Translations under genes and position numbers: made by a program | Notes under the pieces: generated by a model | What the model was told of the DNA's origin: nothing | Seen by the model: the letters and a program-made list of their open reading frames with translations, nothing else | Databases searched by the model: none | Shown here: positions 25,659 through 30,963 of the stretch, piece after piece | How positions within the stretch are numbered: the first letter of the stretch is position 1 | Layout: every line of letters starts with the position of its first letter | NCBI GenBank assembly: GCA_029865225.1 | Contig: JAOUHJ010000032.1 | Location: 1 to 33,838, forward strand | From: Nitrospira sp. | GTDB lineage: Bacteria; Nitrospirota; Nitrospiria; Nitrospirales; Nitrospiraceae | Length of the DNA stretch: 33,838 bases | Direction: 5' to 3'

Positions 25659-27775
<2,117 letters not shown>

Positions 27776-27780
27776 ATCAA

Positions 27781-28374
27781 TTACTGTTTGGACGGTCCCA
27801 ACGCCTTCTGCTTAACGATGCGAAAATGTGCTTCGAGTTCCTGCCGCATGGCCAGCGCCACCACCCAATCCGGCACCATGGATTTGATTTCGACCACCAA
27901 TTCGAAATCGGCACGAGTCTGGTTCCCTTCTCCGGCAGAAGCGAGCTTCCACACTCGATGATACCGTGTGAAGTCTCCACCAATGAGGTCGGTCACGAGT
28001 CCACCACTTTCCAATGTCCTCGACTCAGTAACGAGCCGATGCTCTCCAGGCATCAGCGCGTGCTCGATTCGAAGATCCACCGTGGCTACCCCATCCCGGA
28101 CAGTCAACTCGGCCACGCGCATGCGGACTTCAAAGAGATCAGGCCAATGGGGATAATCGGCCAGCATTGCTTGCACGACAGCTGGCGGTGCCGGGAGGAA
28201 CACCTGCGCCGTCGCGCGAACACCGCCTCCAGATTCTGTCACGACTTCTAACCGGTCCGACTCAGCCGCCACAAGCTGCCCTGCTCCCCATGCCAGTACT
28301 GACAGCAACACGGTTGGCACAACCAGCCGGACTGAAACGAAACGCGCTTTCCCTCGTTTAACCAACAATGGCAT
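27781..28374 (-). CDS. Exported START/SRPBCC-like protein
   Basis: About 197 residues. The N-terminus is basic (MPLLVKRGKAR), followed by a hydrophobic segment (about 14-36) and a likely signal cleavage after LVAA. The mature part resembles the START or polyketide cyclase fold: FLPAPPAVVQAMLADYPHWPDLF near 60 and a WKLAS strand further on. Such domains bind lipids or other hydrophobic molecules. The substrate is unknown. The start overlaps the end of the DGQHR gene by 17 bases, which suggests coupling; a longer frame inside that gene is less likely because it would delay the signal peptide. No clear ribosome site. Confidence 0.72.
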   Translation of the reverse strand: MPLLVKRGKARFVSVRLVVPTVLLSVLAWGAGQLVAAESDRLEVVTESGGGVRATAQVFLPAPPAVVQAMLADYPHWPDLFEVRMRVAELTVRDGVATVDLRIEHALMPGEHRLVTESRTLESGGLVTDLIGGDFTRYHRVWKLASAGEGNQTRADFELVVEIKSMVPDWVVALAMRQELEAHFRIVKQKALGPSKQ

Positions 28375-29470
28375 CCAGCAGCCGTTGATGAATCTTTCGC
28401 ACCCGTTCGAGTTGCCCTTTCGCCGGAAACCGTTCATAGAACCCATCGGCTCGAAACTCCTTGGTCAACGGCGCCCAGGGCTTGACGATCTCGGCAAACG
28501 GTTTGTGCGAGCGCTGCTCTTCCCAATCCGCGATAAGTTTGCGATCCACGATCAGGTCGTCGAGCACGCGGATCAGCGCCTTGAGCGTGACATCACGCGT
28601 GAACATGTACCGCTCATTCTGTCCCCACACCTCGCCCATCACGTCCTTAACACCCTTCAGATAATCACGGACCAACGCGTAACACCGGTCGGGTTTCATT
28701 CCGAGATGAGACTCCAGCCAACGTTTATGAACCGTGATAAGTTTTAATAGTTCGTTGAACACCTCGGACTGGAGAATCCACTTTTCCTGTTTGCTTCGCC
28801 CACCCAGTCGATTGATCTTGTACTGCAGCGGTGAGTCCGATTCACCATACAAGAGATTGACGACCTTCGCGGCGAATTTCTTTTCCGGACTTTCCCAGGA
28901 CACTTTTTCGTAGAGATCCACGAGATGCGATCGGTTGATCCTGGTATGGGTCGAGTTGATGATCACGAACATTTCTGTAGCAAAATCTGCGCTTCGCCCG
29001 TCGAAAAGCAAACAGGGCACCTCGACTTGCGCACTTTGATCCGGGTGCTTCTCATGGAAAAAATGCAGGCCGGCGAGACGATGTTGTCCGTCAATCACCA
29101 GATATTTCCCCTTCGGCTCGCTCAGATGGCCGATCGACTCGGACCCATCTGCCTTTTGAAACCGAAGCGTTTCATCGGTGAAAAGAAGTACGGTGCCAGG
29201 AATCATCGGCTGGACGACGACAGTCTCATAAAAATTCACGATCTGCTTGATCTTCTGTCGATTCAGGACCCGCTGAAAACCCTTTTCGCTACGCTCGATA
29301 CCCGCAATAAACTGCGCCACTTCATCGTGTTCCGAGATTTTAGATTGTTCGATTTCTTCACCCTCGAAATAGTAACGGCTCGTAAACCGAACTTTTTGCA
29401 ACAAGTCGCTGGCCTTGTAGGCGATAAAATAGAACATTCCCTCTTTTTGCGCGATCCGCGTCGCAAGCAT
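28358..29470 (-). CDS. Solo DGQHR-domain protein (DndB-like)
   Basis: 370 residues carrying the signature DGQHR at 127-131 (in VIDGQHRLAG), followed by NSTHTRINRSHLVDLYE near 172-188, the second conserved stretch of this family. DGQHR proteins include DndB, the regulator of DNA phosphorothioation, and relatives in other defence or nucleotide-modification islands. Here no dndA/C/D/E or dpt gene lies nearby; the neighbours are a START-like protein and thiE. It could be a relic, a regulator or an enzyme of its own kind. No membrane segment. GGGAGG precedes the ATG. The length is typical of the stand-alone members. Confidence 0.82.
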   Translation of the reverse strand: MLATRIAQKEGMFYFIAYKASDLLQKVRFTSRYYFEGEEIEQSKISEHDEVAQFIAGIERSEKGFQRVLNRQKIKQIVNFYETVVVQPMIPGTVLLFTDETLRFQKADGSESIGHLSEPKGKYLVIDGQHRLAGLHFFHEKHPDQSAQVEVPCLLFDGRSADFATEMFVIINSTHTRINRSHLVDLYEKVSWESPEKKFAAKVVNLLYGESDSPLQYKINRLGGRSKQEKWILQSEVFNELLKLITVHKRWLESHLGMKPDRCYALVRDYLKGVKDVMGEVWGQNERYMFTRDVTLKALIRVLDDLIVDRKLIADWEEQRSHKPFAEIVKPWAPLTKEFRADGFYERFPAKGQLERVRKIHQRLLDAIVG

Positions 29471-29565: not shown

Positions 29566-29940
29566 ATGGTTTTGCAGCTATACAGACTCACCACTTTTAT
29601 CTCATTCGTCATTTTCCTAACGACGATCGCGTCGAGCGCTGTCGCTCAGGGACCGGAGGGTGCACGGGCAACCACGGAACTCTCCTGTAGCTTCTCGATG
29701 GAAAAAGATGAAACGGCAGAACCCTGTCACGTTCCATTCCCGAAGGGATGTCTGGTCGCCCAAATCCCAGGCACCACGCAACCCTGGACCTCCATTTCCA
29801 AGGGTGGCCGATTACAATGCCGGTTTGATGAAAAAAAGACCGATTGGAAGACGAACATCGTCGGCACGTGTGGTCGATGCCAATCGGTCCGCTGTTCGGC
29901 TCAGTTCAGCGTCCGCTTTGACTGTTCCGGCCAGCCATAA
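29566..29940 (+). CDS. Small secreted cysteine-rich protein of unknown function
   Basis: 124 residues with a signal peptide (hydrophobic LTTFISFVIFLTTIASS, cleavage near AVAQ at 28). The mature chain of about 97 residues has eight cysteines (in LSC, EPC, KGC, LQC, GTC, GRC, VRC and FDC contexts), an even number suggesting up to four disulfides outside the cytoplasm. It ends in a CGRC motif and a strand-rich tail. I know no family for it. The ribosome site is weak. queG starts 15 bases after its stop, so they may share a transcript, though their roles appear unrelated. Divergent from the DGQHR gene. Confidence 0.65.
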   Translation: MVLQLYRLTTFISFVIFLTTIASSAVAQGPEGARATTELSCSFSMEKDETAEPCHVPFPKGCLVAQIPGTTQPWTSISKGGRLQCRFDEKKTDWKTNIVGTCGRCQSVRCSAQFSVRFDCSGQP

Positions 29941-29955
29941 TTCCCCGTCTCACCG

Positions 29956-30963
29956 ATGTCCCTAGCTCACACCATCAAACAAGAATCTCGATCGTTGGGA
30001 TTCGATGCAGTCGGCATCGCATCGATCGACAACACTCATCCCTTTTCAGCCAACAGCAACCAGAAGACCGGCATTGGCGACGACCAAGCAGCCACGTTTC
30101 CACAGCGACTGTTTCATCGTCTCAGCCAATGGATCCAGCGTGGCTACCACGGGAGTATGGCCTGGATGGAACGGACACCTGAAAAACGTGCTGATCCTCG
30201 GCATGTGCTTCCTGGCTGCCGGTCGATTATTTCAGTGGGAATCAATTACCTGACCGAACATCGCGCCAACGAACAGCCGGGCTATGGGCGTATCGCCCGG
30301 TATGCCTGGGGAAAGGATTACCATAAGCTTTTTGACTCCAGACTGAAAAAGCTGGAACAACTCATTCATAAGATCCACCCCGAGGCTAAAACCCGTTCGT
30401 ACTCCGACACGGGCCCGATCATGGAAAAGGCGTGGGCCGAACGGGCGGGTCTCGGTTGGATCGGCAAACATTCGAATCTCGTCTCGGCTGAGCATGGCTC
30501 CTGGCTATTGCTCGGGGAAATCCTGACAACGTTGGATCTCGAACCCGATGAGCCGGCGACCGATCTGTGCGGGAGCTGTACGCTCTGTATTCAGGCCTGT
30601 CCGACGAAGGCCATCGCCGAACCCTATGTCGTCGACGCGACACGTTGCATTTCCTACCTGACGATCGAACTTCGCGGCGATGCCACAGCTATCCCACAAG
30701 ATTTGCGATCGAGAATGGGAAACAAGATCTTCGGATGCGACGATTGCTTGGATGTCTGTCCGTTCAACCTCCGAAGTGAGCCGACTCATGAAGAAGCCTT
30801 TCAGCCGACTGATTTGACCCTCGCGCCCGATCTCAACACTCTCTCCGAGCTGGACGAATCAACTTTTTCCGCATGGTTTCAGCACAGCCCGATTCGGCGG
30901 GCAAAGCTGCATGGGCTGCATCGCAATGTGGCAATCGCCCAACACAATATGAACTCCTCATAA
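29956..30963 (+). CDS. queG: Epoxyqueuosine reductase
   Basis: Performs the last step of queuosine synthesis in tRNA, reducing epoxyqueuosine with cobalamin and Fe-S clusters. 335 residues: an N-terminal DUF1730-type domain with YSDTGPIMEK near residue 149 and GLGWIGKH near 165, then two 4Fe-4S sites, CGSCTLCIQACP near 205 and CDDCLDVCPFN near 258, plus an intervening CISYLTIE. The usual C-terminal HEAT-like repeat tail of longer family members is missing, as is common. It follows the secreted cysteine-rich gene after 15 bases. No other queuosine gene lies here. Confidence 0.93.
   Translation: MSLAHTIKQESRSLGFDAVGIASIDNTHPFSANSNQKTGIGDDQAATFPQRLFHRLSQWIQRGYHGSMAWMERTPEKRADPRHVLPGCRSIISVGINYLTEHRANEQPGYGRIARYAWGKDYHKLFDSRLKKLEQLIHKIHPEAKTRSYSDTGPIMEKAWAERAGLGWIGKHSNLVSAEHGSWLLLGEILTTLDLEPDEPATDLCGSCTLCIQACPTKAIAEPYVVDATRCISYLTIELRGDATAIPQDLRSRMGNKIFGCDDCLDVCPFNLRSEPTHEEAFQPTDLTLAPDLNTLSELDESTFSAWFQHSPIRRAKLHGLHRNVAIAQHNMNSS

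Follow-up and report, generated by a model that had tools for sequence, protein, structure and literature searches.

We analysed a gene for a DGQHR-domain protein in a 33,838-nucleotide stretch of Nitrospira DNA (the window), and find that it belongs to a known family, whose members have been described in DNA modification and restriction, and represents a separate orphan subfamily within it that evolves slowly. From its conserved motifs, predicted fold and constraint, we suggest that this one is a nucleotide-switched, nucleic-acid-binding regulator belonging to a stand-alone chromosomal DGQHR subfamily outside phosphorothioation, a reading to which we give a probability of about 0.4. In the openly accessible papers and listings on DGQHR and DndB proteins, we recognised no description of this orthologue group.

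A DGQHR family member encoded ahead of START and thiE

The initial annotation had called a DGQHR-domain protein at 28358-29470 with two family signatures, and both parts of that call were borne out. The open reading frame is real and carries the two signatures, with DGQHR spanning residues 127-131 and NSTHTRINRSH residues 172-182; the coding strand is the minus strand, and the plus-strand reading of the same interval contains three stops. The gene, its motifs and its neighbours are as follows:

27101..27775, minus strand: thiE, thiamine phosphate synthase, assigned by family profiles
27781..28374, minus strand: START/SRPBCC-like protein whose N-terminus resembles a signal when judged by eye; the ORF reaches 28446, with a likely start at ATG 28374
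28358..29470, minus strand: DGQHR-domain protein, 370 aa, from ORF reading, family profiles, models and fold comparison
28925..28957, minus strand: NSTHTRINRSH motif, residues 172-182; a 43-row alignment shows no variation at N172, which belongs to the FxxxN motif
29078..29092, minus strand: DGQHR motif, residues 127-131, consistent with GxxR, the nucleotide-binding P motif of the ParB fold
29270..29275, minus strand: QR pair, residues 66-67, invariant in the 43-row alignment that includes nine viral-contig relatives
29507..29535, minus strand: promoter-like TTGCGA-17-TAGAAT ahead of DGQHR-START-thiE, a pattern seen in 35 of 40 upstream regions
29566..29940, plus strand: small protein rich in cysteine, judged by eye to be exported and encoded divergently from the operon, with no family match over cut-off
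29956..30963, plus strand: QueG-like epoxyqueuosine reductase, divergent, which served as a tree marker

The score against TIGR03187, the DGQHR domain family (133.7 bits, cut-off 58.85, E 1e-38), rules out a chance occurrence of the motif, and the protein also passes the gathering cut-off of PF14072, the Pfam DndB family (38.6 against 29.1 bits, E 8.5e-10). It falls below the cut-offs of the DndB equivalog TIGR03233 (15.7 against 328 bits), of DpdB, NF041060 (54 against 300 bits, aligned over residues 59-312), of DGQHR_dnd_1, TIGR04172 (55 against 450 bits, with the N-terminal 246 residues aligned), and of GmrS / DUF262, PF03235 (20.1 against 33.2 bits, E 7.7e-04). Neither ParBc nor HTH was among its Pfam matches at E <= 1, so the protein does not qualify as a canonical ParB, and the Pfam scan returned no other DNA-binding domain and no HNH domain. 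PADLOC gave partial matches to DpdB (8.3e-16) and DndB (1.5e-05), and PHROGs labels the protein ParB-like (7.8e-05).

DGQHR, START and thiE lie on one strand and are closely packed, as had been seen at the outset: given the ATG at 28374, a start picked by eye, START shares 17 nt with the end of the DGQHR gene, and thiE begins 5 nt past the end of START. The promoter-like pattern is missing from five of the 40 upstream regions (L065, L066, L068, L070 and L092). Because a scan of 2.7 kb found two such sites where 1.2 were expected, support for this promoter comes from its conservation, not from the match. On the divergent side, the small protein has a match over most of its length in 37 of the 49 loci searched. 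There are 45 ORFs of at least 120 aa in the window, 28 of which were scanned with Pfam and 13 with PADLOC. No dnd or dpd gene was found among the ORFs scanned, in keeping with the original remark that no modification genes lie nearby. The genes recognised by Pfam are metabolic, including transketolase, glutamine synthetase, PutA, lipoyl synthase, and BioD-like and QueG-like proteins. Besides the DGQHR protein, the one PADLOC match was mad2, to a protein in which Pfam recognises methyltransferase domains, and we read it as generic.

Genome searches support an orphan gene

The initial annotation weighed an orphan gene against a displaced regulator of a complete dnd locus elsewhere in the genome whose own dndB is missing. 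In its own genome (G000; 4.12 Mb, 169 contigs, 99.98% complete) this gene is the only one for a DGQHR protein, by protein, TIGR03187 and PF14072 searches alike (in a control, TIGR03187 had matches in 4 of 14 well-known genomes, one of them over the cut-off). Family searches of the same genome gave no match for DndC, DndE or DpdA, and the best match for DndD reached 18.5 bits against a cut-off of 245.85. The search for dndCDE thus found no full locus without a dndB, and supports the gene being an orphan and not a displaced dnd regulator. Since no core dnd genes were found in its own genome, the protein probably has another job.

That the protein is nevertheless a displaced DndB, regulating a phosphorothioation system encoded elsewhere in the genome, is hardly credible unless such a locus is missing from the assembly. 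The PF14072 match would suit such a role, as would genome G020, in which an orthologue and DndC co-occur. However, the own genome has no DndC, DndE or DpdA and no DndD over the cut-off, the TIGR03233 score is 15.7 where 328 is required, and DndC is found in one of the 68 genomes of the order that carry an orthologue. Across the 235 genomes of the order, DndC matches in six and exceeds its cut-off in five, with G020 alone also carrying an orthologue; among 32 genomes with distant orthologues it matches in four and exceeds its cut-off in three.

In G020 the DndC match lies on a 7.7-kb contig (L131) in two overlapping pieces, perhaps frameshifted. They are followed by ORFs of 672 and 123 aa, which we took as dndD and dndE by size alone. 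No dndB-sized ORF was noticed ahead of DndC on its strand in this 7.7-kb contig, and the orthologue of the DGQHR gene is on a different contig.

Orthologues are frequent in Nitrospira and patchy beyond it

Searching 235 genomes of the order, we obtained a match at E <= 0.001 in 80, which we read as 68 with orthologues (59-100% identity, E below 1e-130, some truncated by contig ends), six with remnants or fragments (G005, G072, G075, G076, G077 and G138) and six with distant relatives only (G110, G171, G187, G192, G215 and G234). Within the genus, the gene is present in 46 of 79 genomes (G000 and G061-G138) and was not found whole in 33, some of these assemblies being incomplete. START was found in 164 of the 235 genomes against 68 for the orthologue, and in G016 and G020 the two are on different contigs; in other genera of the family, several loci retain the two as a pair.

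A search of GTDB contigs gave 93 relatives; we kept the 80 best, and 44 of these rows went into a tree. A Nitrospirota clade is separated with support of 100/100 from a mixed clade of Myxococcota, Verrucomicrobiota, Fibrobacterota and gammaproteobacteria, plus two further bacteria. One metagenome-assembled genome labelled Deltaproteobacteria (L073) has an orthologue with 69% identity nested in the Nitrospirota clade, which reflects either a transfer or a mislabelled bin. Full-length orthologues occur in 6 of 236 genomes sampled around a Verrucomicrobiota genome, the centre included, and in 14 of 240 sampled around a Myxococcota genome, eight of which were already known carriers; the orthologue is therefore patchy outside Nitrospira.

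The gene is strongly constrained, yet has been lost in several genomes

The strength of selection was compared at the 30 of 50 loci where DGQHR, START, ThiE and QueG were all usable (435 pairs, uncorrected pN/pS). Median pN/pS was 0.059 for DGQHR, 0.357 for START, 0.259 for ThiE and 0.233 for QueG, ratios that are rough because pS is near saturation, and DGQHR had the lowest pN of the four genes in all 435 locus pairs. In wider sets, in which the rows differ for each gene, a copper oxidase neighbour gave 0.097 to the 0.081 of DGQHR, so one neighbour is about as constrained. An alignment of 44 rows has 111 invariant columns. The gene is under strong purifying selection within Nitrospira. Its distances also track those of its neighbours (Mantel r 0.66-0.73, equalled by none of 2000 permutations). 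This supports vertical descent, and we take the gene to show signs of vertical inheritance in the genus.

Five genomes (L118-L122) have a disrupted or deleted gene but retain the promoter pattern, START, QueG and thiE, the last at least in part. Among 18 further START loci without an orthologue, the pattern is found upstream of START in five (L146, L148, L149, L152 and L153); in L158 a promoter match lies farther from START, and the others have different upstream sequence. In one of these loci (L146, genome G078), the DGQHR position ahead of START is occupied by sequence that has inverted ends (TGGCCCACATTATTCATGA and, nearly complete, its reverse complement) and a run of N. This sequence between the promoter pattern and START is perhaps a mobile element. 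We then placed presence and absence on a QueG tree. It covers 63 of 74 loci, of which 42 have the gene and 21 lack it; the other 11 had too little QueG. Eight gains or losses are needed (7-9 across bootstraps, at least five forced by well-supported branches), and several absences nested among holders point to recent losses, with the gene lost repeatedly.

The gene is thus conserved but dispensable, a dispensable passenger of the START operon in position, though not in constraint. This bears on the housekeeping role that the initial annotation had raised as one option. A role outside conflict is plausible, given the signs of vertical inheritance, the low pN/pS and the absence of an orthologue from phage, plasmid and viral scans. 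An indispensable role does not fit a gene of which no whole copy was found in 33 of the 79 Nitrospira genomes, incomplete assemblies among them, and for which the QueG tree needs about eight gains or losses.

Orthologues in other phyla have no recurrent neighbour

Mapping the neighbourhoods of homologues had been recommended with the initial annotation, and doing so with our own ORF calls (138 flanking proteins from 38 loci beyond the close Nitrospira set, although six of these loci still belong to Nitrospirota) revealed no recurrent neighbour of the orthologues in other phyla. A partner conserved across phyla was sought and rejected, since no Pfam or PADLOC family occurred in more than five of the 138 proteins. 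Flanks matched 73 PADLOC families at 1e-10, and the top ones among the 25 families listed appear to be generic kinases and ATPases. Neighbours at individual loci include a kinase, an FAD/Fe-S oxidoreductase, a citrate transporter, a PLP enzyme and, at L081, an SNF2 helicase of a kind likewise met in defence loci. In a sister family, the gene comes after a MacB-type ABC transporter.

A phage or plasmid origin also found no support. The phage scan contained no orthologue, its one record (PfAC19) being 26.4% identical; the plasmid scan contained none among 29 records, all below 60% identity, the 20 listed lying at 23.5-28.5%; and of 29 stretches of viral contigs that fit a pattern, none codes for a relative.

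Of the distant relatives examined in the order, at least three have restriction or dnd genes close by: after a type I restriction protein in L135 (2915-6304; 1.6e-170), after a type III methyltransferase in L136 (2408-5308), and about 4 kb from DndC in G110. Distant DGQHR proteins at L133:5033-7059, L134:5480-7410, L135:6375-8306, L136:5344-7382 and L137:843-2992 are each directly followed on the same strand by a gene for a protein of 318-344 aa, forming a recurrent two-gene pair. The partners in L133-L136 had no PADLOC match, and neither the two that were also scanned with Pfam nor the two scanned with PHROGs had a match there.

The N-terminal half is predicted to adopt a ParB/sulfiredoxin fold

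Two AlphaFold models of middling quality (pLDDT 69.9 and 73.2, pTM 0.51 and 0.52) agree on an alpha/beta structure for the N-terminal half and on helices for the C-terminal half. With the second model, 18 of the first 19 rows in VIA-align are ParB, Noc, PadC, KorB, sulfiredoxin, SspE and SbnI, the odd one being Atu1540, which is listed without a family name; the best match has a Z of 7.9 with an rmsd of 2.6 A over 96 residues, a score under 8 from a model of pLDDT 73.2. The first model places the same group on top, with a best Z of 6.8. Foldseek found no match in the PDB at E <= 0.001 for either model, and gave seven matches among viral models, including a 'DNA-sulfur modification-associated protein' (2.1e-04) and a 'Sulfur modification protein' (2.8e-04). 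From these models, residues ~5-177 are predicted to form a ParB/sulfiredoxin fold. This agrees with the available part of PMC4619093, in which DGQHR, DUF262 and ParB/Srx are linked and a DGQQR-like motif is described.

With nine viral-contig relatives of 17-21% identity added to the alignment (43 rows), the invariant residues still include F65, Q66, R67, D127-R131, F168 and N172, and a profile comparison with five distant members gave 98.8% over 233 columns. GxxR is the nucleotide-binding P motif of the ParB fold according to the portion of PMC12704722 available to us, which reports that a DndB-like ParB-fold protein bound ATP and GTP, that changing the P-motif arginine abolished binding in that set, and that 17 of 28 purified proteins showed no binding.

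For the C-terminal half no fold match was convincing: in VIA-align it mostly retrieved designed helical repeats and unrelated helical proteins, with Z up to 4.2, level with SerK. Residues 178-370 have a pI of 9.4 and a charge of +7.2, and this basic half leans towards nucleic acid, with the pI counting as weak evidence. DndB itself is described in the accessible text of PMC4507180 as binding its own promoter region.

A proposed function and its alternatives

We propose that the QR, DGQHR (GxxR) and FxxxN residues of the ParB/Srx-like N-terminal half would hold a nucleoside triphosphate, and that its binding would toggle the protein between states while the basic helical C-terminal half may bind DNA or RNA. 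The DGQHR protein would then be an NTP-switched regulator, as reported for DndB, with a target other than the dnd operon. In favour of this proposal we counted the passed TIGR03187 and PF14072 cut-offs, the invariant QR, DGQHR, F168 and N172, the ParB-group fold matches and the ParB-like PHROGs label, as well as the reported NTP binding by a DndB-like protein and promoter binding by DndB (both from partial texts), the basic C-terminal half (pI 9.4, +7.2), the low pN/pS and the lack of an orthologue in the phage, plasmid and viral-contig scans. Against it stand the absence of an HTH or any other DNA-binding domain among the Pfam matches, model pLDDT of 69.9 and 73.2, Z under 8 and no Foldseek match in the PDB. 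Nothing points to autoregulation, because the promoter is kept in genomes that lost the gene; an autoregulatory operator, sought by eye in the promoter, is not supported, as the same block outlives the gene.

A metabolic enzyme is a rather unlikely alternative. In this view the protein would work alone, like SerK, SbnI or sulfiredoxin, as a phosphotransferase dependent on NTP or ADP, with a small molecule or a protein as its substrate and no role at DNA. A 43-member profile searched against the PDB returned only free serine kinase chains and a like Pyrococcus chain, with a match that spans LiiDGQHR / LIVDGHHR (residues 120-142), but at E 0.13-0.19 this match lacks significance, and it is only about 23 residues long. 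There is precedent in a protein annotated as ParB that proved to be an ADP-dependent serine kinase (in the part of PMC5120207 available), and a stand-alone gene with ordinary neighbours and enzyme-like constraint would fit; however, ParB and Noc come closest in fold by Z (7.9, against 4.2 for SerK), and no metabolic neighbour recurs beyond a few of the 38 loci scanned.

Low pN/pS and signs of vertical inheritance are unlike most defence genes, and together with the metabolic genes scanned in the window, the lack of any defence family in more than five of 138 flanking proteins, and the absence of an orthologue from phage, plasmid and viral scans, they make unlikely a defence system of this one gene, whose product would be a sensor with NTPase or nuclease activity that acts on foreign or modified nucleic acid with no partners. 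Such a protein would account for the distant relatives in restriction or dnd loci (L135 type I, L136 type III, G110 about 4 kb from DndC) and for the patchiness outside Nitrospira (6/236 and 14/240) and repeated loss; nuclease or nucleotide-degrading roles have been raised for DndB in the available text of PMC10853773. Very unlikely is a service to the START-thiE operon, for example in regulating or coupling an envelope lipid or thiamine function. The tight operon, with START overlapping the DGQHR stop, and the pairing with START at several loci in other genera of the family are what one would expect of it, but START and thiE remain after gene loss, at several loci behind the same promoter, 164 of the 235 genomes have START whereas 68 have the orthologue, the two lie on separate contigs in G016 and G020, and START is absent from the 25 Pfam families listed for the flanks of 38 more distant loci. 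Because promoter, START and thiE stay after DGQHR loss, the operon partners look incidental, and we rejected a functional tie to them as the main reading; the packing noted in the initial annotation is real, but a tie in function is not supported.

Significance and comparison with known systems

If the subfamily indeed lies outside modification and restriction, is inherited vertically and evolves more slowly than ThiE and QueG, then the family has a role beyond conflict. Tentatively, we view the regulator as a DGQHR/DndB-family protein recruited from genome conflict into core cell biology, NTP-switched and regulating or modifying something in nitrifiers, Myxococcota and Verrucomicrobiota, with stronger constraint than ThiE or QueG and conditionally dispensable. 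The biochemistry of the DndB family, namely which nucleotide and which ligand, would then become testable on a clean single-gene case. In addition, a 'DndB' or 'DGQHR' annotation in Nitrospira is by itself no evidence for phosphorothioation.

Compared with DndB/DptB (TIGR03233), a reported ATP-modulated dnd regulator, the protein shares PF14072, the QR, DGQHR and FxxxN motifs and a similar length. It differs in its score (15.7 against 328 bits), the lack of core dnd genes found in its genome, its slow evolution, and a conserved C-terminal GFYERFPAKGQ region of its own. With DpdB (NF041060), of 7-deazaguanine DNA modification, it has the DGQHR domain in common (residues 59-312, 54 bits), whereas the score is below the 300-bit cut-off and its genome has no DpdA match. 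TIGR04172, DGQHR_dnd_1, resembles it over the N-terminal 246 residues, but at 55 against 450 bits, and phosphorothioation genes were not found.

Beyond the DGQHR family, the predicted ParB/Srx N-domain and GxxR are shared with the ParB/Noc/KorB CTPases and with the orphan ParB-fold proteins described in the available part of PMC12704722, although our protein has no ParBc or HTH in Pfam and no ParA among its immediate neighbours. GmrS/DUF262 and SspE resemble it in the PF03235 match (7.7e-04) and a DGQQR-like motif (PMC4619093, in the part available), but the PF03235 score is 20.1 against 33.2 and an HNH domain match is lacking here. Finally, SerK, SbnI and sulfiredoxin have the same predicted fold class and a DGHHR-like motif; they differ in giving no significant sequence match, and the Nitrospira protein carries an extra C-terminal half of ~190 residues.
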